In this document: one piece after another, positions 403 to 20,980 of the stretch
How the letters are laid out: every line of letters begins with the position of its first letter
Position numbering within the stretch: the first letter of the stretch is position 1
Made by a program: the position numbers and the translations under genes
IMG/VR virus record: IMGVR_UViG_3300045999_001868
Coordinates: 1-24,204 of that record
From: a virus
Strand: one strand, 5' to 3'
Length of the DNA stretch: 24,204 nucleotides
The notes under the pieces: generated by a model
What the model was told of the DNA's origin: nothing
What the model saw: only the letters and a program-made list of their open reading frames with translations
Database searches by the model: none

Positions 403-2394
403 TTAGAACAATGCTAACTGATTGGATGGAACTGTTAGGATATTATTTATCTCAGACTCTATGTCTTCAAGATAATATCCCGTGTTGATATCATAATCTT
501 CCCATTTAGGTTTAACAACCATCTTGTTGTACAATGTCTGAAGCCATTTGCCGGATTCAAGTTGTATCTCTCTTCCGTCAACTTCATTCACTTTGGTTAT
601 CTTAACACCTTTCTTGGAGATATAATATCTGTTTACTTTTTGAAGGTTGTCTTCTGTAAAAGCACCGTCTTTAATATACCGGGCCACCTGTTTCCATTCA
701 CCTTTTGATTTGGCTCCAATACAATAATCAAGAATGTTCTTATTGCTTTGGATATAATCATGCGGCAGGATACCATTAATGAAATAAGCATACACACCTT
801 TAGCAACTACAAGTTTGGATTTGTTTTTATGAAGCTGTAATTCATGAAAATCAAACCGACCCTTAGTCTTTACAGGGGCATACATAAACTTATCACCATT
901 CACCTTATAGAGATAATGGGGATTCTCATCCCTGATTTCTCTCCATGCTGTAATATCAGTCTCTTTGTAATTGTTTACTGCAATGTAATTGTTTACATCT
1001 GCTAGCACAATCTGCTGATATGTATCATGCTCAAGCTGAAGACTGGTGATTTGTTCCCACTCTTTACAGATTTCCATATAGTCATCATAATACTGTCTAG
1101 GTATTCTTGTCTCTAGACCATCTGTATTCTGCATAAGAGCAACTGCATTAGGTATCCGGGTCATTATCATCTCATAAAGCATCATGAGACTAAGCTGGCC
1201 ATTAACAGTGATACGCATACAGAACTCCGGATCATAGAAGAAACTATCTGCATCATTACTCAAACCATATGTACTATTAAGAATGATCTTATACACATAG
1301 TTCATTGGGTCCTTCTTTGGGATTTTCTTTCTCTCATTGAAGAACCATTCATACTGATCACAGAATTCTTCTTTAGGGAAGTGGGCCGGTGCCCATTTAT
1401 TCCTGATTGCCAGGTTAGGATAGAAGCTTACCACATCTGAAGTAATAATCACATGATCATCATCAGATTTGTAAACTCCGGAACTCCTGGCACCATGAAC
1501 TCCGCCTAGACCAAAGTCTGTCTTCACACCCTTGTAATTAACCGTGTGCTTAAAAGAACCTTTCAGATTATCTCCCTTCAGTTTAACTTTCCTGAATGTA
1601 TCAAGAAGATGGTTAAACTCTGGAGATGTAAATTTGATATACGGGAGAATGATATCATTAAGTTTAATCACATCCCTGCGGGTCCTCATGTTTTTGATTT
1701 CCCTTTTTTCCATGTTGAGCTTCTGAGATAAATAAAAAGCAAACAACTCTTTACTTATCCTTGGCTCAGAGGCACTATACAGATTGATACCATACTTATC
1801 TGTCAATGCTTTTCTCAGTTTGATTTGAGAGGAAGACCTTTTGAAGATCTCTTTAGTAGACCGTACATCATTAAGACAATACTCAATAATGAGATCTATT
1901 TCCTCCATGGTTTTGATTTCAGTGCTGTGATGGATTGGCATTTCAAGAATGTTTTCCCAATCCATGCTGTACTGAATCCATTTCAAACTGGATCTCTTGG
2001 CCGGATTATCCCAGTGGTTTAACTTGAATATGTCTATTTGACCTACATCAAGCTTCCATTGTGGATACTGCTGCCATTCCTTTTTGTCTTGTTTACTAAT
2101 GCATTCCTGTGCATACTTGTAAATCTGTGCACTCTTACCACAAGCATCATAGCCGGCCCACTTACGGTGATTGGCCAATATATGTTGGGTAACTTGTGAG
2201 TCAAAGCTGAGACCATTGAAAGATATATGCCATTCTCTCTTTTGCTTGTTCTGTTCCAGGAACATTATAAACTCATTGAAATCATCTCTTAGGTTGTGCA
2301 CCACAAAGACTTTCTTCTCATTGGTTTTATAATGCTCAAAGCATGCAACAAAGCAATTGCTAAGAGTCTCATAATCCATTATCCAGTGTGTCAT
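403..2394 (-). CDS. Family B DNA polymerase with 3'-5' exonuclease and C-terminal clamp motif
   Basis: This is the replicative DNA polymerase (663 aa). The exonuclease motifs are in order: DYE (D7, E9), FNGLSFD (N60-D65) and YCLND (Y172, D176). The polymerase motifs follow: motif A DVVSFYPNL (D320, Y325), motif B KIILNSTYG (K369-G377) and motif C QNTDG (N423, D425). In motif C the usual YxDTD is changed so that only the second, metal-binding Asp remains. The protein ends NQLALF, a match to the bacterial beta-clamp binding pentamer QLxLF. I chose the ATG at 2394 because the longer frame from 2436 would translate straight through a strong terminator hairpin at 2403-2432. No terminal-protein region is obvious. 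The family assignment is secure; use of the host clamp is an inference. Confidence 0.93.
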   Translation of the reverse strand: MTHWIMDYETLSNCFVACFEHYKTNEKKVFVVHNLRDDFNEFIMFLEQNKQKREWHISFNGLSFDSQVTQHILANHRKWAGYDACGKSAQIYKYAQECISKQDKKEWQQYPQWKLDVGQIDIFKLNHWDNPAKRSSLKWIQYSMDWENILEMPIHHSTEIKTMEEIDLIIEYCLNDVRSTKEIFKRSSSQIKLRKALTDKYGINLYSASEPRISKELFAFYLSQKLNMEKREIKNMRTRRDVIKLNDIILPYIKFTSPEFNHLLDTFRKVKLKGDNLKGSFKHTVNYKGVKTDFGLGGVHGARSSGVYKSDDDHVIITSDVVSFYPNLAIRNKWAPAHFPKEEFCDQYEWFFNERKKIPKKDPMNYVYKIILNSTYGLSNDADSFFYDPEFCMRITVNGQLSLMMLYEMIMTRIPNAVALMQNTDGLETRIPRQYYDDYMEICKEWEQITSLQLEHDTYQQIVLADVNNYIAVNNYKETDITAWREIRDENPHYLYKVNGDKFMYAPVKTKGRFDFHELQLHKNKSKLVVAKGVYAYFINGILPHDYIQSNKNILDYCIGAKSKGEWKQVARYIKDGAFTEDNLQKVNRYYISKKGVKITKVNEVDGREIQLESGKWLQTLYNKMVVKPKWEDYDINTGYYLEDIESEINNILTVPSNQLALF

Positions 2395-2402
2395 ATCAGT
2401 TG

Positions 2403-2432
2403 AAAAAAATGGGGCAGATTTTAACCTGCCCC
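2403..2432 (-). terminator. Rho-independent terminator just upstream of the polymerase gene
   Basis: The minus strand folds into a 7-bp GC-rich stem (GGGGCAG/CTGCCCC) with an 8-nt loop, followed by A and seven T. It ends the unit of the 141-aa gene. The T tract stops only 8 nt before the polymerase ATG at 2394, so polymerase mRNA must come from read-through or carry this hairpin in its leader. Confidence 0.85.
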
Positions 2433-2447
2433 ACACGAAATGGAAAC

Positions 2448-2885: not shown

Positions 2886-3475
2886 GTTGGTTTTTCGTTT
2901 TGGTTCAAAGATATGCCAACATCACTCAATAATTCAACCACTTCAGAAAGTTTTTCATAAAGTGTTTCCTTATTCATGTTAGGCTTGTTACATAACTCAT
3001 ACACAGATTCTATTACAGATACAGGAACATTAAGTTCTTTTGCATACTCTGCATGATAGATATCTGGGAATAAAAATGCTGTAACAAAGCTTGCAATCTT
3101 ACCACTCTTTCCAAAGAAATCTTCAATGGTATCCTTTGAAATTGAACTGAATTGTGAATACTTACCTTTTACAAACATCTCAAAGTCCTTCTTAAAAGGA
3201 GAGAAGTCAAATACATAAAGATGTGTATCATCACTCAGCTTGTGATACTCTTCAAACAAAATGTTATTCTTTAGGCCGGCTTCAAATGTTTTGAACTTAT
3301 CATTCATTTCTACATTATATACACATAGAAACTTAATGTCCTCTACACCATACACTCCATCCCAACAGATATAAGTCTCTGCCGGGGTGAAGGGTACATT
3401 CTTTTTAATTCTAAGAAGCGGGTAAAGAAATACTTTACTCTTTTGAAAATATTCAGTGTAAACTCCGTTTGTCAT
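2882..3475 (-). CDS. Unknown phage protein (197 aa)
   Basis: The family is not recognised. The N-terminal half is rich in aromatic and beta-type sequence (for example TYICWDGVYGVEDIKFLCVY); the C-terminal half is helical (ELNVPVSVIESVYELCNK onward). There are no membrane spans. It overlaps the PD-(D/E)XK nuclease gene upstream and the 141-aa gene downstream by 4-nt ATGA junctions, so it belongs to a coupled run with the nuclease. A DNA-processing role is possible from context but nothing in the sequence proves it. Confidence 0.8.
   Translation of the reverse strand: MTNGVYTEYFQKSKVFLYPLLRIKKNVPFTPAETYICWDGVYGVEDIKFLCVYNVEMNDKFKTFEAGLKNNILFEEYHKLSDDTHLYVFDFSPFKKDFEMFVKGKYSQFSSISKDTIEDFFGKSGKIASFVTAFLFPDIYHAEYAKELNVPVSVIESVYELCNKPNMNKETLYEKLSEVVELLSDVGISLNQNEKPT
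2906..2913 (-). promoter_or_regulatory. Internal -7 promoter box TATCTTTG
   Basis: TATCTTTG lies on the minus strand inside the last codons of the 197-aa gene, 21 bases upstream of the ATG at 2885. A GTTG is spaced 21 nt upstream of it, where the Bacteroidota -33 element should be. With the terminator at 2403-2432 it would frame a one-gene unit. Confidence 0.5.
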
Positions 3476-4473
3476 AGTACAATCCTTTGTGTTAGAAACA
3501 TGTACGGCAGGCTGTAATTTCTCTGTTCATAATGATACTGAGCCATATCAAGTGCAGTTATTAAACTTACACTCCAACTGGTCAGAGTTTCATCTGCTAC
3601 ATCAAATACATAAACCTGATTGTACTTGTCAATAACCACAAATTTGCACATTATCTGGTAATCTTTTTCATCTTCAGTAAGATTTTCAAAAACAAGTCTT
3701 CCATATATGGCCATCTGCAGCCAATAGTTATAGAAGTCAATGGTCTCTTTGAAGTCTGAAATAGTTTTAGAAGTTGTCTTCAGATCACATATCACCACCT
3801 CTTTTCTTTCATCATCAATCTTGTAATAATCCACAATACCTTTTAGGCCAAATGAATAATCTTTCAGTTTCTGAATCATTAAGGGTTTTTCAACAAAGCT
3901 TTTGGCACCATCAAGTTCAAAGTCTGTCTGAGAGGCATTGAATAACTCCATTACATCTTTGTTTTCTTTGATGATATCAACCTGCTCTTGGCACTTTGTT
4001 AATGTATCCTGATCAATAACATCAAGCTTACTTGTATTCAGATACTTCCAGTAAACATCATTATCCTGGGTCTGGATCTTTTCAAGTCTCTTTGAATCTT
4101 CCTTCAATGTCTGATAAAGATTCTCTGATTCTAATGCATCTAGTATTAACTTCTGATGATTGGGATCCGTGGATAGTAATGACTCAGGTTTAAATGGCTG
4201 GTCCTTTAATAAATAAAGTACCTTCTTAACCGAATCAGTGGGAACTTTTGAAGGAATGATGTTAAACTTATTCTTTAAGTTACCTGGTTCAAATAACAGA
4301 CAATGAATAAGTTTGCCTTCTATTAGATGCTTATCTGTTGACTCTTCTCTCTTACCAAGAACATAGTCCCGGTAGAAGAGAGTTGGAGAAAACATGAGCT
4401 TGTTTATGGATGAATAACTAAACTGGAATTCTTTGGAATAGAACTCCTCTTCTTTTGTGAAATCTCTTTTCAT
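3472..4473 (-). CDS. PD-(D/E)XK superfamily nuclease, exonuclease/Cas4-like
   Basis: This is probably a DNA exonuclease that makes single-stranded ends for recombination. The N-terminus has YSSINKLMFSPTLFYRDYV and EGKLIHCLLFEP (about residues 19-64), typical of DUF3799-type phage PD-(D/E)XK proteins. The catalytic core reads GIVDYY (D215), then DLKT (D230, K232), followed by the QxxxY motif LQMAIYG (Q253, Y257). All expected catalytic residues are present in 333 aa, a normal length. It is coupled by ATGA overlaps to both neighbours. The Sak4-like ATPase and SSB-like protein elsewhere in the window are the partners such nucleases usually work with. The superfamily is secure; the direction of cutting and the partner are inferred. 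Confidence 0.88.
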   Translation of the reverse strand: MKRDFTKEEEFYSKEFQFSYSSINKLMFSPTLFYRDYVLGKREESTDKHLIEGKLIHCLLFEPGNLKNKFNIIPSKVPTDSVKKVLYLLKDQPFKPESLLSTDPNHQKLILDALESENLYQTLKEDSKRLEKIQTQDNDVYWKYLNTSKLDVIDQDTLTKCQEQVDIIKENKDVMELFNASQTDFELDGAKSFVEKPLMIQKLKDYSFGLKGIVDYYKIDDERKEVVICDLKTTSKTISDFKETIDFYNYWLQMAIYGRLVFENLTEDEKDYQIMCKFVVIDKYNQVYVFDVADETLTSWSVSLITALDMAQYHYEQRNYSLPYMFLTQRIVL

Positions 4474-4679: not shown

Positions 4680-4728
4680 TTAAGGAGTGGGTGAGCCGAA
4701 GCCCACCCATACTATGGCTACTCCTTAA
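4680..4728 (-). terminator. Two-part hairpin with UUCG loop between operons
   Basis: On the minus strand an outer 9-bp stem (4720-4728 with 4680-4688) encloses an inner 8-bp GC-rich stem (4701-4708 with 4689-4696). The loop is C(UUCG)G, and an 11-nt one-sided bulge lies between the stems. No T tract follows, only CTTTAAGTT, so it may be a terminator, an mRNA-end stabiliser or a processing site. It separates the MoxR/vWA cassette from the nuclease run. Confidence 0.6.
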
Positions 4729-4734
4729 ATACCA

Positions 4735-5874
4735 TTACTCACCAAGAGTCATCAATTGATACTTTGGTGAAAGTTTGATTGCATTGATATCAATAGTAAA
4801 TGCTCTTTCATTACTGTTGTAACCAAGCATACTATCCACAACATGATTGAAGTACAAAGCCACTGATTCCCTAAATGCAAATTCAGTTAATGCTTTATCC
4901 GCACTTAGTCTACCTATAAAATAATTATAAGCATGTGGTTGATTCAAGGCTGGTCCTGTGAAGTATGCTGAAAATGCTTTCCTAAGAACTTTAAATGCGG
5001 CACTGTTATATCCTCTTGTTTCCTTTAGTCTAGAACCAAAGTAATAACAAAGCATTGCAATCTTATCATAGGAAGTTTTCATGTTTGAATTGGCCATAAT
5101 ACTTACAGCTAACTCACGGTCCTCATTACTTGCTTCAATCATCTTCACCAGGTTCCTGTAGTCCTCTTCATTCAATGTGGTCATATGCTTATCAGCAAAT
5201 GAATACATGTGAGAATCAAGTACAAGGTTACCTCTAGTGATTATGTCATTCAATTCCTTAGCATTTTCATCAGTGATATAAACAATGTTGCTGTAATCAG
5301 TGATGCTGTGTCTAAAATCATTAAACTTAGAACCAAGTTTTGAATGAGTAAATCCATAAGTTGGTATCATGTTGATTATAAGCAGATCATCCTTGTTTGT
5401 ATTTACAAGAAACTTCATGATCTTCTCATATGCTAGATGATCAAATAAGTCTTTAACCAATTGATTATTCTGTAATCTATCCAACATCACATTATACTTG
5501 TTGACTATTCTTTCATAACCACTTCTGGTTAAGAAACCGGAAAGACTGTTGATTGAAATAATCTGGTAGTCTGCTTGACTACTATCTTTAACAATCTTAC
5601 AACCATGTTTCTGTTTCAAAATATCAAACTTGTCTCTTGGAAGATTGATATCAGAATGCCTATAAAAAGACTTGCCGTTTATCTCAGTCTCATCTGGAGT
5701 CTTAAGTTTAGACATACTATTTGTAAAGTATGAAGTTTGCTCAAACTTAAAAGCATAGTTAGACTTTGATACCAAAGACCCCATATGTTCTATTTCTATG
5801 CGGTCTTCTGTTATAGCGGTTAAACCGTTAAGATTATCTAAATTGAATGTAATATTAAATACTCTGCTTGCCAT
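4735..5874 (-). CDS. Unknown protein B of a paralogous pair in the MoxR/vWA cassette (379 aa)
   Basis: The family is not recognised. Residues about 67-107 align without gaps to residues 68-108 of the preceding gene's product (pattern K-x-F, then KxxH-x-x-x-V-x-D-x-x-x-AD). A second shared block, LVKMIEASNEDRELAVSIM at 242-260, aligns with 226-246 of that protein and with the start of the 129-aa protein at 9346-9735. The block looks like a helical HEAT-type repeat. The gene overlaps its paralog by 20 bp and is the last gene before the UUCG hairpin. There is no signal peptide or membrane span. It is probably a partner or substrate of the MoxR/vWA machine; this is inference from order and shared motif. 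Confidence 0.8.
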   Translation of the reverse strand: MASRVFNITFNLDNLNGLTAITEDRIEIEHMGSLVSKSNYAFKFEQTSYFTNSMSKLKTPDETEINGKSFYRHSDINLPRDKFDILKQKHGCKIVKDSSQADYQIISINSLSGFLTRSGYERIVNKYNVMLDRLQNNQLVKDLFDHLAYEKIMKFLVNTNKDDLLIINMIPTYGFTHSKLGSKFNDFRHSITDYSNIVYITDENAKELNDIITRGNLVLDSHMYSFADKHMTTLNEEDYRNLVKMIEASNEDRELAVSIMANSNMKTSYDKIAMLCYYFGSRLKETRGYNSAAFKVLRKAFSAYFTGPALNQPHAYNYFIGRLSADKALTEFAFRESVALYFNHVVDSMLGYNSNERAFTIDINAIKLSPKYQLMTLGE

Positions 5875-6910
5875 AATACTTTTTGTACTGAGGTTTTAAC
5901 TCAACTTTAAAAATATAGAGATCTCTATTTTCAATCCTGATCTCTTTTCTAACAATACGTTCCAGATACTTGAATGATATATTGTCCAGTTTATTATGTT
6001 CTTCTAACCATTTAATCATATCAAGTGCTTCTTTGTATTTGAAATTACTATATCCAGATGTTTCCATCCAATACTGCACATCTTTGTTTTTATTAAAGAC
6101 ATACATTCTTGAATAGCTTTCTTGAGCAAATTCCCAAAGCAAATGAAAATTACAAGTGTAATCAATTGTTGGAATAATCTTACCAGCAATCTCTCTATCA
6201 TCAACATTGGAAGAATTCATGTATCTGATCAGATCTTTAACAAGCTCTTCTGTTAAGGTAATCTTGTTAGCAGAGGCATTTACAATAGTCTCAGCATCTA
6301 TAACACCATAGTTACCCAGTTCAATCTGATAAGCAAGATTCAAGGCCAAACCTGTAATCATGTACCTATCATACATAGCACTATCTGTATCACACATGTA
6401 AGATCTATTGCCCAATGCTGTTACCTTATCATCAAATAAAATACCTACACCACTTGATTGAATCCAATTATCAAGAAAGCTTGTTCCAGTTTTAGTTTTC
6501 TTTAGAATCTCATAGTTCCATACATTTGCTAACATTGCTGTTGTAAGAATAGCATCACCGTTTCTAAAGTCCCTATAGAACTCATCATGTGTGATTATAA
6601 AATCAGCTGTCTCATAATCATTTGTTACAGTAATCTTATGTTCTTTAAGAGCGGCCTTAATTCTATCCTGAGATACAGGACACAATGGAAGAATGAATGC
6701 TTTCTTCTTGCTTCTGAAAGTTGTGTCATCAAGAGTGTTTGTTTCAAGTGCACTCTTTATTTTTTTATAAACATCATCATTAGATGTAACCATTACTTTT
6801 TCAACACTATCTCCGGAAGAAGAAAGTACCCCATATTCAGGGGTACCTTCCAATCCGTAGTGTTTCAAAGCAGCAGTATCATAAATCTGATAAACTGACT
6901 TTGTTGCCAT
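5855..6910 (-). CDS. Unknown protein A of a paralogous pair in the MoxR/vWA cassette (351 aa)
   Basis: The family is not recognised, but it is related to the next gene's product (4735-5874). Residues 68-108 carry the shared KxF...KEHKITVTNDYETADFIITH block. Residues 216-246 carry the shared TLxEE...SSNVDDREIAGKI block, which is also found in the 129-aa protein at 9346-9735. It starts one base before the MoxR ATPase stop (TAATG junction), which implies coupled translation and roughly equal amounts. No enzyme motif or membrane span is seen. The large central insert without similarity to its paralog suggests divergence in binding partner. Confidence 0.8.
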   Translation of the reverse strand: MATKSVYQIYDTAALKHYGLEGTPEYGVLSSSGDSVEKVMVTSNDDVYKKIKSALETNTLDDTTFRSKKKAFILPLCPVSQDRIKAALKEHKITVTNDYETADFIITHDEFYRDFRNGDAILTTAMLANVWNYEILKKTKTGTSFLDNWIQSSGVGILFDDKVTALGNRSYMCDTDSAMYDRYMITGLALNLAYQIELGNYGVIDAETIVNASANKITLTEELVKDLIRYMNSSNVDDREIAGKIIPTIDYTCNFHLLWEFAQESYSRMYVFNKNKDVQYWMETSGYSNFKYKEALDMIKWLEEHNKLDNISFKYLERIVRKEIRIENRDLYIFKVELKPQYKKYYGKQSI

Positions 6911-8175
6911 TACTTAATTGTCATCTTGATGATGCTTGGATCCATCATCATTTTATTGAACTTCTGCTTGTTGCCATTGAAGATTGTTCTTACAACAAGA
7001 TATTTCAAATCATTGGTGAAATAATCTTTGGTGCAAAGAGTGATCAACCGGCTTGTGATCTTCTCTGAAATAGTGTTGTCTTTAGAATACACTACTGCAA
7101 AGTTTGCTAACCTCGTTGCCAGGGTTGATGCAATATCTGCACGATATGTATCACCCTTACCCACACAAGATTCCAACTGAGCCAAGATTGTTTGCTCATT
7201 ATCAGCAAGCAACAGATCCTTTGGAGTTACCAGTTTATCAAGTTTGTTGTTGATAAAGGTGGTAAACATACTTGCAAATGCATCACCAACAGAACCTTCA
7301 CCAATCATCTGAATCATTGACAGATTAGATTCAAAATCTGCAAAGCTTGAGATGGAGTTAAAGAATGTAGTGATGGATCTTGAGTTAGTTTCCTGAGTCA
7401 CAAGTTCAGGATGCAGAAGCAGGAAGTTGATACAACGGGTATCAATGCCGGCTTCTTCTGCCCATCTGGCCCATACATTAACATCATACTTCAGATTAGC
7501 AGTGATGTATCTGGTTTTCTGTGCAGCGTCAATGCTGTTAACCATATAGTCACCATTGTCTGGATTTGCTGTTAGGATAATGTGCCAGTCTTTTGGAAGA
7601 GACCATGAGATGTAAGTCTGACGGTCAATCAATTCCATGACGGCCTGGATGAATCTGGTATCTGCACGGTTCCAGTCATCCAACAATAGAATGCCACCTT
7701 CTTTTTTATCTGCAATCCATTCTGGAGCACAGTATGACATCCTGTTCTTACCGGTCATTTTGTATCCGTTCTTCAGATACTCAGCAACGGCAAGTTCATC
7801 AACCCACAAACCAATCTTCTTTACCTGGCCTTCACCAAGCTTTGCCATGTCATTAGAAGCAGCAGCTCTCTGTGCAGCAGTAAAGTTCAACTCATCAGCC
7901 TGTGCCACTCTCTGTTCCTTATACATTTGGAACTGACGAACTGGAAAACCAACCAGGTCACCAAGCTCTTCAATCTGAGCCAAGTTCAACTTTACAAAGT
8001 TGAGATTATTTTCTTTGGCTATTTCAATAACAGTTGAAGTTTTACCAATACCAGATTCTCCAAGTACCTCAATGGATACGGGATTTTTACCTTGTGCTTG
8101 CAAGAAGCGGTTGTTCTTAATAATGTGATTCACGAAGCCTTTCAGCTCATCAATGTTTAAATTTACGTTTGCCAT
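6910..8175 (-). CDS. MoxR-like AAA+ ATPase (AAA_5 type)
   Basis: An AAA+ ATPase of 421 aa. Walker A is GESGIGKT (39-46), Walker B ILLLDDWNRA (162-171), sensor 1 TANP (202-205), and a basic QKTRY follows at 219-223. The long insertion between Walker A and B and the DDWNRA box are typical of the MoxR/AAA_5 group. These ATPases remodel proteins together with a von Willebrand A (vWA) partner. The vWA metallopeptidase encoded 7 bp upstream (8183-9343) is the expected partner. The stop overlaps the start of paralog A as TAATG. The substrate is unknown; the paralogous proteins downstream are candidates. Confidence 0.9.
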   Translation of the reverse strand: MANVNLNIDELKGFVNHIIKNNRFLQAQGKNPVSIEVLGESGIGKTSTVIEIAKENNLNFVKLNLAQIEELGDLVGFPVRQFQMYKEQRVAQADELNFTAAQRAAASNDMAKLGEGQVKKIGLWVDELAVAEYLKNGYKMTGKNRMSYCAPEWIADKKEGGILLLDDWNRADTRFIQAVMELIDRQTYISWSLPKDWHIILTANPDNGDYMVNSIDAAQKTRYITANLKYDVNVWARWAEEAGIDTRCINFLLLHPELVTQETNSRSITTFFNSISSFADFESNLSMIQMIGEGSVGDAFASMFTTFINNKLDKLVTPKDLLLADNEQTILAQLESCVGKGDTYRADIASTLATRLANFAVVYSKDNTISEKITSRLITLCTKDYFTNDLKYLVVRTIFNGNKQKFNKMMMDPSIIKMTIK

Positions 8176-8182
8176 AGTTTTT

Positions 8183-9343
8183 TTAATTTAATTTTATTGT
8201 TCTTCCGGGTAAGTAATCTACCATGTTTGACTGACTGCTAAGAACCCAAAGGGTATTCTTAGGACAATCATGAGGTGCAGAGCACTCACCATCTGTTAAA
8301 TATATAAGAGCAGTATAACGCCCATGTTCATTAAAGTGGTCAATAACAGGTTGGAAATCAGTCCCACCTCTACCTTTGATTTGAAATTCCTTTTTAGGAT
8401 TGAAATCTTCTACAGAGTTTAGTCTTGAATCACACTGGGCAATAGTAATCTTATGCCCGGTCTTATGCATATGGTGCAATTCATTCAAGAATTCTTCCAA
8501 CTCTTTGTTGTTCACAGACCCTGAAGTATCTATACCTACAAGAATGTGATTTTTAAACTTAATCTTAAGACCAGGATTTTCAATATATCTCTTATTGAAT
8601 TTCCTCCTAAGCTTTTTAGTGTAAGTAATACATGAATTACCTACAAATCTTCTGAGATAACCCTTCCAATCAAACTTTGGTGGTTCAACATGAAAGAGTC
8701 TTTCCATAATTTGTGCAAGTTCACCAGGTACAGTACCTCTTCTTTTCTCAGTTTGTTCTGCAGTTTCTTTGAGCTGATGCTCAATTTGCTTCTGAACCAA
8801 CTTCTTGTCTGCCTCAGATAACTCATCAAAGTCTTGCCATCCAGGATGACAGTAAGGACTGTTACCATCCATTTGATTCAATAAAGAATCTAAAGATGGT
8901 GAAGTACCGTCTTGCTGAGCTTGCTGTAGCAAATCATAATAAGTGTCAGTACCTGCTTTTGGAGGAAGATTCAACTCAGGGAATGTGTTTAGTGTCAACC
9001 CACCATCTGGAAGAAAGTCTGCACCAATGTACTGATTGATTTCCAAATCTGCCGCTATGTTGAATAGCTTCTTATCAGGATACAAATCACCAGTCATAAG
9101 ATGCCCAAAGGAAATATGCAGGAGCTCATGCTTGATCAAACCTATTCTATGCTTCTCACCGAGACTCATAAAATAATCTGGATTGATTACAAGCTGTGCA
9201 CCAATACCATGTTTCTTTACACCTGCAGTAGGAATAGTTTTGATATAGGACTTATTCAAGCCTATAAGGAAGAGACCATAGAATGGCTCATCCAGAATTA
9301 AAATTTTGGAGGTCCTTGAAACCTCATCTATAACATGTTGCAT
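8183..9343 (-). CDS. vWA-domain metallopeptidase-like protein (DUF2201 type)
   Basis: A two-domain protein of 386 aa. The N-terminal metallopeptidase-like domain has HELLHISFGH (HExxH at 72-76, third His at 81), followed by a NIAADLEIN segment typical of DUF2201_N. The C-terminal vWA domain has a complete MIDAS: DTSGS (D272, S274, S276), T328 in GRGGTD, and D351 in LTDGE. Such proteins pair with MoxR ATPases, and one is encoded immediately downstream. I chose the ATG at 9343, two bases after the preceding stop, over a TTG at 9352. Whether the zinc site is an active protease or only a fold relic cannot be told from sequence. It acts in the cytoplasm, as no signal is present. Confidence 0.87.
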   Translation of the reverse strand: MQHVIDEVSRTSKILILDEPFYGLFLIGLNKSYIKTIPTAGVKKHGIGAQLVINPDYFMSLGEKHRIGLIKHELLHISFGHLMTGDLYPDKKLFNIAADLEINQYIGADFLPDGGLTLNTFPELNLPPKAGTDTYYDLLQQAQQDGTSPSLDSLLNQMDGNSPYCHPGWQDFDELSEADKKLVQKQIEHQLKETAEQTEKRRGTVPGELAQIMERLFHVEPPKFDWKGYLRRFVGNSCITYTKKLRRKFNKRYIENPGLKIKFKNHILVGIDTSGSVNNKELEEFLNELHHMHKTGHKITIAQCDSRLNSVEDFNPKKEFQIKGRGGTDFQPVIDHFNEHGRYTALIYLTDGECSAPHDCPKNTLWVLSSQSNMVDYLPGRTIKLN

Positions 9344-9345
9344 TG

Positions 9346-9735
9346 TTACCAATTAAATTTAACATCAAGATCTTCTATAAAGCTTTTGCTTATAGTGTTT
9401 GTTGGTAGCCATAAGGGAAATACATACTTAGTTACGTAGTGTTCAAAGCATTCTTTAAAGTTTTCAGGAAGATCCTTACACTCTTTTATTCTCTGATAAT
9501 AGATTGTGAGTCTAAGACTTATTCCATTTTTAAAAGAGATATCTTCTCTGTCTTTAAAGTTTTTTATGAATTCAACTCTTTTATCTAAGCTCATGCATTT
9601 TGCAATAAGTACCGGGAACTCTACATGAAGATCCATATTTCTTATAGTCTCAACAGCCAAATCAAAGTCATCTTGTGACGCATTCAGCATTTTGAGAAGG
9701 TTTTTAAATTCTTCTAGGGTAATACTATTGTTCAT
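9346..9735 (-). CDS. Small protein sharing the helical motif of the MoxR/vWA cassette (129 aa)
   Basis: There is no known family. The N-terminus, SITLEEFKNLLKMLNAS followed by QDDFDLAVETI (residues 4-31), matches blocks in both proteins of the paralogous pair at 4735-6910 (pattern TLxEE...L[LV]KxIxxS..DRELAxxI). This makes it the third member of a motif-sharing set around the MoxR ATPase. The start is taken as the ATG at 9735; a TTG lies 6 bases earlier. It overlaps the RusA gene by 11 bp and stops two bases before the vWA gene. It may be an adaptor or a target for the ATPase; this is inference. Confidence 0.75.
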   Translation of the reverse strand: MNNSITLEEFKNLLKMLNASQDDFDLAVETIRNMDLHVEFPVLIAKCMSLDKRVEFIKNFKDREDISFKNGISLRLTIYYQRIKECKDLPENFKECFEHYVTKYVFPLWLPTNTISKSFIEDLDVKFNW

Positions 9736-10132
9736 TTTCAATTGACATGTGCTGGATATTCTTACAATCCAACAACTCTATCATTACACCGGGGTTATTC
9801 TTATCATACACATACTCAATGAATACAGGAATAATTACATCTGCATTATCATCATCAATCCAACCATAGTTAACCATATCATCCTGAACTGTTTGTGCGG
9901 GATTGATATAGTCAAACTTATGCCGGCTGTTTCTAATGAATGTTAATCCTATTCTCACTGGCAGAGTACAATTTGCAATTGCTTTCTTGAATTCATCAGC
10001 ATACTGTTCATAGTATGCTTTTGAAGTCTTTCTGTAGTTAACTACAGTTTTGCTTGCAATAAAATACTTACCGGTCCACCGTCTACCATTCTTGCTACTT
10101 GGAACATTACCTGGTATAAACCATCTATTCAT
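9725..10132 (-). CDS. rusA: RusA-like Holliday junction resolvase
   Basis: A small endonuclease (135 aa) that cuts recombination junctions. The N-terminal FIPGNVPSSKNGRRWTG and the acidic core match the RusA family: D74 in FDYIN, D84-D85 in VQDDMVNYGW and D93-D95 in IDDDNADVI are the expected metal-binding positions. The length is normal for RusA. It starts within an ATGA overlap with the primase stop, so the two are translated together. It probably resolves branched or concatemeric phage DNA before packaging. The overall arrangement fits RusA well; exact catalytic residues are assigned by motif only. Confidence 0.82.
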   Translation of the reverse strand: MNRWFIPGNVPSSKNGRRWTGKYFIASKTVVNYRKTSKAYYEQYADEFKKAIANCTLPVRIGLTFIRNSRHKFDYINPAQTVQDDMVNYGWIDDDNADVIIPVFIEYVYDKNNPGVMIELLDCKNIQHMSIENEQ

Positions 10133-11100
10133 GTTTCTATTTTTAAAATTGATTTTAACAAAGGCTTAAGATGCTCATGAGTCTTTTGTAATCCAAAGTT
10201 CTTTACAGCATCTGATATATCCTTATCCAAAGATAAGAAACTACCGTCAATGCTATACACTTCATTGTATCTTGTAATAGCCTTCATACCTGCTTCATCA
10301 TTGTCAAAAAGAGTCACCACTCTTTTATACTTCTGAAGCAAATGATTTACAATGAGAGGTTTTAGAATACTATTCTCACTATCTGGAGCAATTGCTTCTA
10401 CGTTATAACCAATACTCTTCAGGCACATGGCATCTTTTAAAGATGAACATATGACAAGATAAGGTTGATTATATTTCAATTGATCTATACCCTGGACATG
10501 GGAAGATATCTTTAAGAACTTCTTCTTTCTGTTATAGGGCTGATAGATCTTGTATATCTCACCATATTTAGTGAAATAGCCATAGATGTAATCACTCTTT
10601 ACTGTAATTCTTTCAGAACCTTTTGTCATCTCATAGTATTCTATGGGCCTGACATTGTATTCTTTAAGAATCTTTGAACCAATGTTAAATCTTAGCCAGA
10701 ATTTAGCATCATGCTCAAACCAACTTCTTTCAGAAAAATAATTTACCACCCAGTTTTCCTCTGGTTTCAGAGTAACTGCTGTGGCACCATTCTTTTTAAT
10801 GAAAGCATTGTAATCATTTATCATTTTATTTACAGCATCACCATAATTAATCTGAAATAGATGCATTATCAAATCAATCTTACTACCTTGCTTGCCAGTT
10901 GAAAAGTCTTTGAACTTGTATTGCATTACAGACTTGTCAACATAGATGTACATGCTTGGTGTTTTCTCAGATGGATTAAATATTGACCTGATCTTTTCTC
11001 TCTGGCCAGTAAGTGGTGTAGTTAAACCCAAATAGTATTGGAAGACCCAATAGCTTGGAACTTGTGATTCATGAACAATTAAGTTTTTTGTACTTAACAT
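10129..11100 (-). CDS. DnaG-type primase with TOPRIM domain
   Basis: This is probably the phage primase (323 aa). The N-terminal part (FNPSEKTPSMYIY, KFKDFSTGKQGSKIDLIMHL) resembles the DnaG/CHC2 core, but the zinc-binding cysteines are missing. The TOPRIM domain has VICSSLKDAMCL (216-227), LFDNDEAG (264-271, D266 and D268) and DKDISD (292-297). In TOPRIM motif 1 the usual catalytic Glu (EGxxD) appears as Ser219. The gene starts 4 nt after a strong terminator, so it is expressed by read-through or as a minor transcript. Its first codons share a 14-base element with two other genes. A nuclease-type TOPRIM function is a less likely alternative. Confidence 0.8.
   Translation of the reverse strand: MLSTKNLIVHESQVPSYWVFQYYLGLTTPLTGQREKIRSIFNPSEKTPSMYIYVDKSVMQYKFKDFSTGKQGSKIDLIMHLFQINYGDAVNKMINDYNAFIKKNGATAVTLKPEENWVVNYFSERSWFEHDAKFWLRFNIGSKILKEYNVRPIEYYEMTKGSERITVKSDYIYGYFTKYGEIYKIYQPYNRKKKFLKISSHVQGIDQLKYNQPYLVICSSLKDAMCLKSIGYNVEAIAPDSENSILKPLIVNHLLQKYKRVVTLFDNDEAGMKAITRYNEVYSIDGSFLSLDKDISDAVKNFGLQKTHEHLKPLLKSILKIET
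11087..11100 (-). repeat. Shared start-codon element, copy 1 (primase)
   Basis: The minus strand reads ATGTTAAGTACAAA at the primase start. The same 14 bases begin the gene at 11814, and a copy with one difference begins the gene at 13054. It encodes MLSTK. Confidence 0.6.
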
Positions 11101-11104
11101 AATT

Positions 11105-11135
11105 AAAAAGAGAGAGGGATGTTACTCCCTCTCTC
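11105..11135 (-). terminator. Strong rho-independent terminator after the SSB-like gene
   Basis: The minus strand has a perfect 10-bp stem (GAGAGAGGGA/TCCCTCTCTC, 11126-11135 with 11110-11119), a GTAACA loop and a run of five T (11109-11105). It lies in the 42-bp gap between the SSB-like stop and the primase ATG, so it should cut primase expression relative to SSB. Confidence 0.88.
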
Positions 11136-11142
11136 CTAAAAA

Positions 11143-16598: not shown

Positions 16599-17197
16599 AC
16601 TACTTTCTCATTAAATGTTTTAACTTCTTCTTTAAATCCATCTTTAACCATGTCACAATAATCAGCAAGTTCAGAATGTTTTATCTTATTCTTATCTTGC
16701 TTAGATATAAAGTACTGGCTTGTCATCATATAGAGATAGTCCTTGTCTTTATACTCATTGACATAAAGCTTTGTTGCTTCAATTACCTGGTCCCAGGTAT
16801 AGTCATATGTGTCAAAGAACCATCTGAAAGAATCCTCAAGAGCTTTAGCATTTTGCCTTGCAGGTTTTCCTGATGGAAGTTTACCCGCTGGAAAGATTGC
16901 TCTATACTCTTCAATTCTTTTAAGAAAGTCATTACCCATTAGATTAATGCTTGTCTTCTTCTTTGACTTTATAAAGTAAGACTCTAATGATTCAACACTT
17001 TCTAAACCTAATTGAGTTAGGCTAACTTTCTTTGCCGGCTTATCATGAAGAACATAACCTTTTGTTATGAGCTCCCTGATATCTGTATCAAAGGTGGGAA
17101 CTAACCGTGGGGATATCTTCTCCTTGAGGCATAATAGAATCATAAGTTGATTCGGTGTTAACCCCAGACTCAATATTAGCTGAAAGAATTTGAACAT
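16595..17197 (-). CDS. Winged-helix-like protein of phage replication regions
   Basis: I chose the ATG at 17197 (MFKFFQLILSLGLTPNQ), which gives a 200-aa protein; a longer frame begins with GTG at 17275. Residues about 11-70 have the shape of a winged helix (LGLTPNQLMILLCLKEKI, then IRELITKGYV and SLTQLG). The C-terminal half, with FPAGKLPSGKPARQNAKALE and WFFDTYDYTWDQVIEATKLY, resembles proteins found near phage replication genes (recalled resemblance). The first 110 bases overlap the DnaA-like gene in another frame, a long overlap for this genome. A DNA-binding replication or regulatory role is inferred. Confidence 0.75.
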   Translation of the reverse strand: MFKFFQLILSLGLTPNQLMILLCLKEKISPRLVPTFDTDIRELITKGYVLHDKPAKKVSLTQLGLESVESLESYFIKSKKKTSINLMGNDFLKRIEEYRAIFPAGKLPSGKPARQNAKALEDSFRWFFDTYDYTWDQVIEATKLYVNEYKDKDYLYMMTSQYFISKQDKNKIKHSELADYCDMVKDGFKEEVKTFNEKVV

Positions 17198-17642
17198 AGT
17201 TTTTTGTTTTGGATTTAAGTTGTAACAGGATTGTATTGAAATACTTATCCTTTGTGTATATATAATCTTCCGCACACTTTATCAAATTGATAATGCTGGA
17301 ATGATCTCTGTTGAGATATCTGCCAATAGCACTCTTGCTATAGCCTTGCTCATAAGCAAGCAAACAAAAAGCTGTCTTGTGAATAATGAATTCCTTTATT
17401 CTGGTATCAACACGCATGTTTTTAATACCAACAGTTTTAGGTTCATTATGATGTAACACCTCCATTACAAGAGATTCAATCACTTCAAGTCTTAATCTTA
17501 TAATGTGTGGATTTGGGATATAGACATTAAATCTAATACCATACTTCTCAAGCATTATGTCTTTGAAGGTTTCAATAACATTAACTACTTCCTGTTCTAT
17601 ATCTCTCTTTGACATTTGATCTAAAGATTTCAAATTTACCAT
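17088..17642 (-). CDS. DnaA domain IV-like DNA-binding protein
   Basis: A 184-aa protein whose centre matches the C-terminal DNA-binding domain of DnaA: a helix-turn-helix GYSKSAIGRYLNRDHSSIIN (residues 100-119), where RDHSS corresponds to the DnaA signature RDHTT, followed by a helix (LIKCAEDYIY). There is no Walker motif, so the AAA+ part of DnaA is missing. It could bind DnaA boxes in a phage origin or compete with host DnaA. It overlaps the UDG gene by 7 bp upstream and the winged-helix gene by 110 bp downstream, between other replication functions. The domain call is good; the biological role is inference. Confidence 0.75.
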   Translation of the reverse strand: MVNLKSLDQMSKRDIEQEVVNVIETFKDIMLEKYGIRFNVYIPNPHIIRLRLEVIESLVMEVLHHNEPKTVGIKNMRVDTRIKEFIIHKTAFCLLAYEQGYSKSAIGRYLNRDHSSIINLIKCAEDYIYTKDKYFNTILLQLKSKTKNYVQILSANIESGVNTESTYDSIMPQGEDIPTVSSHL

Positions 17643-20891: not shown

Positions 20892-20906
20892 GATTTTAAA
20901 TATTAG

Positions 20907-20980
20907 TGATTCCACCAGGATTTGAACCTGGAACCTACAGCTTAGAAGGCTGTTGCTCTATCCAATTGAGCTATGGAATC
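20907..20980 (-). tRNA. tRNA-Arg (anticodon UCU)
   Basis: This is a standard 74-nt cloverleaf. The acceptor is GATTCCA/TGGAATC, the D stem GCTC/GAGC, the anticodon stem ACAGC/GCTGT with loop CTTCTAA, and the T arm CCAGG-TTCAAAT-CCTGG, with discriminator A. The anticodon TCT reads AGA codons, which suit an AT-rich phage. CCA is not encoded. It begins right at the end of the structured RNA region and was probably made from the same transcript. Confidence 0.95.

Follow-up and report, generated by a model that had tools for sequence, protein, structure and literature searches.

A MoxR-like ATPase and vWA protein pair with fast-evolving partner proteins and a structured RNA element in a crAss-like phage replication operon

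Gene block, motor and vWA partner

The window analysed here is a 24,204-nucleotide (nt) fragment (24 kb) of an uncultured tailed phage, IMG/VR record IMGVR_UViG_3300045999_001868. It contains a block of five genes in which a MoxR-like AAA+ ATPase and a vWA protein are linked to three further proteins, g131, unkB and unkA, and which is followed by a structured RNA element; the block genes and the neighbours discussed below all lie on the minus strand. The first-pass annotation had described the five open reading frames (ORFs) as a tightly linked cassette, and their positions, overlaps and gaps were recovered here. In transcription order, the block comprises:

9346-9735, minus strand: g131, a small protein consisting of little more than one copy of the helical domain common to unkA and unkB
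8183-9343, minus strand: vWA protein with an N-terminal putative metallopeptidase domain (DUF2201_N and DUF2201, COG3864-like)
6910-8175, minus strand: MoxR-like AAA+ ATPase (the motor), identified by PHROG match and alignment
5855-6910, minus strand: unkB, with an N-terminal region, a weak BRCT-like domain and a HEAT/ARM-like helical domain
4735-5874, minus strand: unkA, with the architecture of unkB, the fastest-evolving of the long block proteins
4680-4728, minus strand: UUCG hairpin, a structured RNA element 3' of unkA

The g131 gene overlaps the preceding rusA-like gene by 11 base pairs (bp) and is separated by 2 bp from the vWA gene, whose start codon is ATG (an alternative TTG start would be at 9352). 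A gap of 7 bp lies between the vWA and moxR genes, while moxR overlaps unkB by 1 bp and unkB overlaps unkA by 20 bp.

Relatives were collected in two scans, the first with the ATPase as query against viral contigs (best 80 of 426 relatives kept) and the second based on unkB (59 informative loci). The order dnaG-rusA-(g131)-vWA-moxR-unkB-unkA-PDDEXK-polB is kept in every locus of the first scan that was long enough to score, and vWA-moxR-unkB-PDDEXK in 59/59 informative loci of the second; the ATPase gene adjoins its vWA partner in both, and a g131-family gene lies directly upstream of vWA in 137 loci. Dispersal of the five genes in relatives had been named by the first-pass annotation as what would speak against a common block, and the block is kept in both scans. 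Small inserts occur in the rusA/vWA and vWA/moxR intervals of some relatives. In three loci, a gene of 128-129 amino acids (aa) starting MGRYY(S/T)GDIEGKF sits between vWA and moxR (L122:6131-6517, L143:6312-6701, L132:6309-6695), and in two others a pair of additional small genes lies between rusA and the g131-like gene (L012:7662-8398, L040:7672-8402), one starting MEKKQQDR or MENKNEEK and the other MAHP(M/S).

The ATPase matches a PHROG ATPase family at 2e-35 and has a complete AAA+ module, with the Walker A motif GESGIGKTS and the conserved TANPDN and QKTRY motifs (sensor and arginine residues). Its Walker B motif, LLLDDWNRAD, has Asp-Asp rather than the usual Asp-Glu in 15/15 aligned ATPases, and its nearest solved sequences are chains of Midasin (E 2e-4), a MoxR relative. 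Because of these two features, and of Pfam scores under the gathering thresholds, the name "MoxR-like" is used.

The vWA protein scores above the curated Pfam cut-offs for DUF2201 (60.2 bits, cut-off 26.4) and for DUF2201_N, a putative metallopeptidase (58.1 bits, cut-off 23.2), and matches PHROG 1314 at 2.5e-66. Two motifs were located by sequence alignment:

9116-9130, minus strand: HELLH motif of the putative metallopeptidase domain
8516-8530, minus strand: MIDAS motif DTSGS of the vWA domain

The HExxH motif and intact MIDAS (DxSxS...T...D) attributed to this protein in the first-pass annotation are thus present, and HExxH, a downstream AADLEIN and the MIDAS elements DTSGS, GGT and TDGE are kept across 11 aligned relatives, with DTSAS as the single exception. 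PHROGs and many phage records label this family (PHROG 1314) "HNH endonuclease"; Pfam detects vWA and metallopeptidase-like domains in it and no HNH domain, so this is probably a misleading transferred label, which the present assignment corrects.

Alternatively, the vWA protein could act mainly as a metalloprotease that MoxR switches on and that cuts a regulator, with unkA and unkB as its substrates or inhibitors and not adaptors. HExxH together with AxDxxxN was found by a pattern check in 6/7 vWA proteins of distant phages, as well as in all aligned relatives, which is consistent with such an activity. However, the vWA protein has no sequence match to solved structures beyond chance, no solved or tested homologue of it was found, and the ordered predicted folds and common helical domain of unkA and unkB are unlike degradable inhibitors; this explanation is considered very improbable.

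Predicted folds, turnover and exchange of g131, unkB and unkA

The three remaining proteins had been described as sharing motifs, and by hhalign they do have one helical domain in common (g131-unkA, E 5e-9, probability 96; unkA-unkB, E 4e-6; g131-unkB, E 1e-5), with cross-domain controls of BRCT against helical at E above 0.1. When profiles were compared with the six-frame ORFs of the window and of one complete relative, the domain was found in no ORF besides these three at E below 0.1. The AlphaFold2 models of unkB and unkA, with predicted local distance difference test (pLDDT) scores of 90.4 and 91.0, place a BRCT-like and a HEAT/ARM-like domain in the same order:

6263-6724, minus strand: unkB residues 63-216, BRCT-like domain with an insertion (structural rows; weak Pfam BRCT)
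5876-6262, minus strand: unkB residues 217-345, helical domain (structure search, hhalign)
5182-5691, minus strand: unkA residues 62-231, BRCT-like domain with an insertion (VIA-align rows)
4957-5181, minus strand: unkA residues 232-306, helical domain common to g131 and unkB (structure search, hhalign)

For unkA residues 62-231, the top 16 VIA-align rows are all BRCT or BRCT-like (Dbf4), with Z-scores of 4.4-6.0, and residues 232-306 have HEAT/ARM-like structural matches; for unkB, the HEAT/ARM-like part comes first (Z about 5) and BRCT behind (Z about 3). BRCT is the joint best weak Pfam family for unkB (7/42 members, best E 0.0083, not above cut-off) and is not among the Pfam families listed for unkA. 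Because such scores are below confident thresholds, "BRCT-like" is kept as the name of a probable fold in the models and not of family membership. Structure searches of the PDB gave no match below E 0.001 for either protein, and unkB has no sequence match to solved structures; enzyme-like top structure hits were discounted, with template modelling scores (TM-scores) near 0.1.

Among the viral predicted structures of BFVD, unkB has four full-length matches (probability 1.00, E 5e-8 to 2e-6) at 10-13% sequence identity, namely A0A8S5QMV2 from the crAss-like phage ctYsL76, A0A8S5TL70 and A0A8S5TKB2 from podovirus ctz6O13, and A0A6J5LXR8 from an uncultured phage. The two matches in a single podovirus suggest, at the level of models, that a paralogue pair like unkA/unkB exists elsewhere, and on the basis of these matches unkA and unkB look like divergent paralogues of a wider phage family. 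No unkB homologue was found in named phages by tblastn at E up to 1 or with the helical-domain consensus, and proteins flanking MoxR-vWA pairs in other phages gave no unkA/unkB profile or BRCT match.

The block shows a steep gradient of conservation. In the 32 loci with the full gene set, pairwise identity averages 86.8% for the DnaB-like helicase, 86.3% for MoxR, 77.4% for vWA, 74.7% for polB, 54.7% for unkB and 35.2% for unkA; MoxR is thus as conserved as the helicase, and unkA, unkB and g131 evolve fast. The median ratio of nonsynonymous to synonymous substitution (dN/dS) in close pairs rises in the same direction, from 0.06 (MoxR) and 0.10 (vWA) to 0.23 (unkB), 0.28 (unkA) and 0.34 (g131, few pairs), the last three being the highest among the genes measured.

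One locus, L143, combines two backgrounds. On both sides of the unkB-unkA-element stretch it is 92-100% identical to L057/L069/L075, while between the start of unkB and a point shortly beyond the RNA element it shares 91-99% identity with L050/L053; elsewhere, its identity to these two is about 55-85%. The new proteins are 54% (unkB) and 40% (unkA) identical to those replaced, and MoxR-vWA stayed; as read from the sequences, the unkB-unkA pair and the RNA element moved together. In L156 (9500-11100), unkB and the end of moxR resemble the L116/L056 group more closely than the remaining locus does, and unkA does not; judged by sequence identity, this is a partial recombination signal, weaker than that of L143 and also shown by contigs L141 and L144.

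Turnover of this kind would also fit host targets, and the main rival explanation is a counter-defence or host-takeover machine, in which the motor removes or inactivates host proteins and unkA and unkB pick host-specific targets. The top dN/dS values of unkA, unkB and g131 and the exchange of the L143 pair as a block are consistent with it, and MoxR-vWA pairs are also contained in bacterial conflict systems (PMC7159879). On the other hand, the conservation of the motor equals that of the helicase, and neither PADLOC nor NCBIfam strongly ties the block to any named conflict system, the sole PADLOC hit being a weak one in the P-loop region. Moreover, counter-defence genes usually sit in variable regions, whereas the place of the block in the replication operon is invariable in all relatives. 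This explanation is regarded as rather unlikely.

Structured RNA element and its pairing with the moxR start

The hairpin 3' of unkA folds at -26.1 kcal/mol (z -2.2), without a proper U-tract in the window. In the first-pass annotation, it was taken as a UUCG hairpin closing off the block; by its folding energy the hairpin is real, but its role as a simple closing boundary was not supported, as in 28/57 scorable relatives unkA overlaps the next gene and there is no hairpin. The same RNA recurs in relatives that have space between unkA and the next gene.

In the window, the element is composed of an outer helix (AAGGAG/CTCCTT), a bulge with an antisense segment, and the inner UUCG hairpin. The outer helix covaries among relatives (AAGGAG/CTCCTT, AGGGGT/ACCCCT, AAGGGT/ACCCTT and AGGGAG/CTCCCT), and the sequence of the inner hairpin is free. 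A conserved unpaired GCCATAATTG lies on the 5' side, between the outer helix and the inner hairpin, and over 8-13 nt it is reverse-complementary to CAATTATGGC, the region of the moxR start in the same genome. The corresponding sites in the window are:

4711-4718, minus strand: antisense segment GCCATAGT, whose complement is found at the moxR start
8171-8178, minus strand: ACTATGGC, the site predicted to pair, covering the moxR start codon

Segment and leader show compensatory differences, with GCCATAGT/ACTATGGC in the window and in L001/L002, TGCCATAATTAA/TTAATTATGGCA in L046, TGCCATAATTGAT/ATCAATTATGGCA in L007, and AGCCATAATTGT/ACAATTATGGCT in L050. The two are also co-distributed: among 66 genomes placed on a tree, a complementary moxR leader is present in 22/24 with the element and 0/42 without it. 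The tree implies at least 4 changes between presence and absence of the element; in each of four independent comparisons, the leader changed the same way as the element or showed no difference, never the opposite, a number (n=4) that cannot reach significance in a sign test. In a swap test, own pairing averaged 9.96 nt against 9.40 nt when permuted (13 of 2000). A test over all loci regardless of element presence had diluted the signal, which was resolved by splitting the loci by element.

Two exceptions were noted. In L122, the gene inserted after vWA bears a moxR-type leader, AATTATGG, at its own start; in L143, the moxR leader was not exchanged with the adaptor pair, and the element seed reads ACCATA. 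A simple-terminator reading of the hairpin is insufficient, as the sequence of the bulge varies together with the moxR leader. The pairing with the target covaries, as expected of an antisense RNA. The element is a conserved structured RNA, and the comparative sequence evidence suggests antisense control of MoxR translation, the direction of which we infer. In the Rfam scan, a tRNA was the sole match.

Genomic setting, proposed mechanism and related systems

The block had been placed in a replication operon, and it is indeed surrounded by genes for DnaG, RusA, a family-B polymerase and a DnaB-like helicase. Its immediate neighbours are:

10129-11100, minus strand: DnaG-like primase, first in transcription order
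9725-10132, minus strand: RusA-like protein, after the primase
between the hairpin and the nuclease gene, minus strand: ORF of 66 aa, placed by transcription order
3472-4473, minus strand: PD-(D/E)XK nuclease, followed by two small genes
403-2436, minus strand: family-B DNA polymerase, with tblastn matches to phage DNA polymerases

Before the primase gene, downstream of the 223-aa gene in the position of the single-stranded DNA-binding protein (SSB), there is a strong terminator-like hairpin (11105-11137, minus strand; 12 pairs followed by TTTAATT). The replication region also has a tRNA-Arg (anticodon TCT; 20906-20980, minus strand) found by ARAGORN and Rfam, and a protein encoded at 17088-17642 (minus strand) contains AIGRYLNRDHSSIINLI, a sequence that by eye resembles the DnaA DNA-binding domain, and is a possible replication initiator.

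The first-pass annotation had supposed a crAss-like phage, which is confirmed by a complete relative of 117,829 bp, from its terminase, portal and capsid, and not from the 24 kb fragment. The terminase of this relative matches mostly crAss-like records and is about 25% identical to Crassvirales members (a search with PF03237 had found nothing in ten long relatives, and the terminase was later found by PHROGs); its capsid is nearest to that of Leptolyngbya phage Lbo-JY46 and also matches csAssE-Sib, Cellulophaga phages and crAssphage cr6_1. The phage belongs to an uncultured aquatic crAss-like clade with genomes of about 115 kb. Since no vWA, MoxR or unkB match was found in six named crAss-like phages, the block marks this clade among the crAss-like phages tested. 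Two metagenome-assembled genomes have the block in phage-like contigs, by which no host is established. The complete relative also encodes an ORF of 4988 aa (L160:848-15814 in contig G003), beside ORFs of 2057, 1698, 1502 and 1422 aa.

Such large proteins, those of 4988, 2057 and 1698 aa, could be clients if the machine helps, as a chaperone, to assemble or mature a phage complex (virion or giant polymerase-like proteins) or serves metal insertion, like RavA-ViaA, NorQ-NorD and an archaeal virus MoxR-vWA pair. Characterised MoxR-vWA pairs act in this way (PMC9976466, PMC13036017, PMC3893208), a phage-tail case from archaea is cited in PMC7159879, and N4-like phages keep such a pair as core genes (PMC4193335). 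However, the block lies in an operon with replication genes and not structural genes, it gave no match in the six named crAss-like phages, and rapid adaptor turnover is not explained by chaperone clients; a chaperone is considered unlikely. The idea that MoxR-vWA pairs in phages are generally linked to injected giant RNA polymerases was also considered and dropped, as jumbo phage and cyanophage carriers do not fit it.

The locus is instead read as encoding an AAA+ remodelling machine of the replication operon with exchangeable adaptors, whose MoxR is damped by an antisense RNA, and this reading as a whole is given somewhat less than an even chance. It draws on the order of the genes, their conservation, the domains that their products have in common, the predicted folds, a single exchange of the pair, and co-variation and co-distribution of the RNA. 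The MoxR-like ATPase would be the motor and the vWA protein its partner, with the MIDAS face docking on the ring by analogy with other MoxR-vWA pairs; the HExxH domain, from its sequence, may coordinate metal or cleave peptides. Target recognition would fall to unkB and unkA as adaptors: their shared helical domain (alone in g131) would dock on the complex of motor and vWA protein, and the client would be gripped by the BRCT-like and N-terminal parts. A motor that hardly changes, a conserved vWA bridge and fast adaptors with a common domain fit a machine with replaceable recognition parts; the adaptors change fast and can be exchanged as a pair while the motor stays. The likeliest clients, favoured because of the operon position, would be DNA-replication or recombination complexes of the phage, or host proteins on that DNA. 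By pairing with the moxR start codon, the RNA hairpin would probably damp MoxR synthesis from the end of its own operon. The joint proposition, in which a conserved AAA+/vWA motor acts on clients chosen by exchangeable, fast-evolving BRCT-like/HEAT-like adaptors and its dosage is set by an antisense RNA at the operon end, is put forward as a tentative and still doubtful one.

Several points weigh against this interpretation. The Walker B motif of the ATPase carries Asp where Glu is expected, and the protein is under the Pfam gathering scores for MoxR-type models (AAA_5, 19.7 versus 22; AAA_3, 16.2 versus 27). The BRCT Z-scores do not exceed 6, and a Z-score below 8 can arise simply from a widespread arrangement; the BRCT-like domains lack the two glycines that typical BRCT domains have, and over these domains the similarity of unkA to unkB is weak (hhalign E 6.7e-4, probability 27%). 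The clean pair exchange comes from one metagenomic contig, IMGVR_UViG_3300003409_000026 (locus L143), in which an assembly chimera is possible; the two breakpoints at gene edges make a chimera less likely. L156 was rejected as a second whole-pair exchange, as the signal is carried by unkB and not by unkA. In the window, pairing covers 8 nt only, and by hybrid energy this site comes 37th of those possible; the case for the RNA is therefore comparative. It is location by itself that points to replication clients, and docking, complex formation, and the ATPase and peptidase activities are putative.

In N4-like phages, MoxR-vWA pairs belong to the core genes, and their role has long been obscure. 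The version described here opens clients and mechanism to testing, because it brings along adaptors that can be identified, a gradient of conservation, an adaptor exchange found in nature and a possible RNA regulator. Should replication complexes or host proteins be what the adaptors recognise, this widespread group of uncultured phages would carry a remodelling machine whose specificity can be replaced; if the RNA acts as predicted, a phage operon would have built-in antisense dosage control.

A limited literature search turned up no previous description of the adaptors, the domain they share, the exchange or the RNA. With regard to BRCT domains (PARP1, REV1, Sir4 and BRCA1), the likeness is to the predicted fold of unkA residues 62-231 and, weakly, of unkB residues 63-216, with the difference of a long insertion and scores below the confident range. 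In RavA-ViaA, NorQ-NorD and CbbQ-CbbO, a MoxR-class AAA+ ring and a vWA protein together serve dedicated clients (PMC3893208, PMC9976466, PMC4660213), but these systems are cellular, their clients are known, and no BRCT-like/HEAT-like adaptor pair appears in the descriptions found. In the vWA-MoxR-VMAP ternary conflict systems, vWA, MoxR and a third specificity component are encoded together (PMC7159879), whereas the third component here has another predicted architecture (unkA and unkB have no PADLOC hit and no VMAP name among the best 25 Pfam families listed) and the system is phage-borne in a replication operon.

The MoxR-vWA pair itself, recognised as a known type by the first-pass annotation, is already known in phages. 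Alteromonas phage AD45-P1 (gp51-gp52) and Moorella phage MTATph1 have adjoining genes for a COG3864-type vWA protein and a MoxR-type ATPase with a further protein downstream, which does not match the unkA or unkB profiles. In N4, gp24/gp25 are an AAA ATPase and a vWFA protein encoded close to replication genes; they belong to the core genes, lie in middle transcripts and have no known function (PMC4193335, PMC2784036), and the same likeness extends to other Schitoviridae (N4-like phages) such as LIT1 (gp33/gp35). The order in LIT1 differs (ATPase, spacer gene, vWA), and LIT1 gave no unkA, unkB or g131 match. The N4-like ATPase is only distantly similar to the MoxR-like motor, whereas the N4-like vWA proteins, aligned over 89-94% of the query at 26-29% identity, are clearly homologous to the vWA partner described here.

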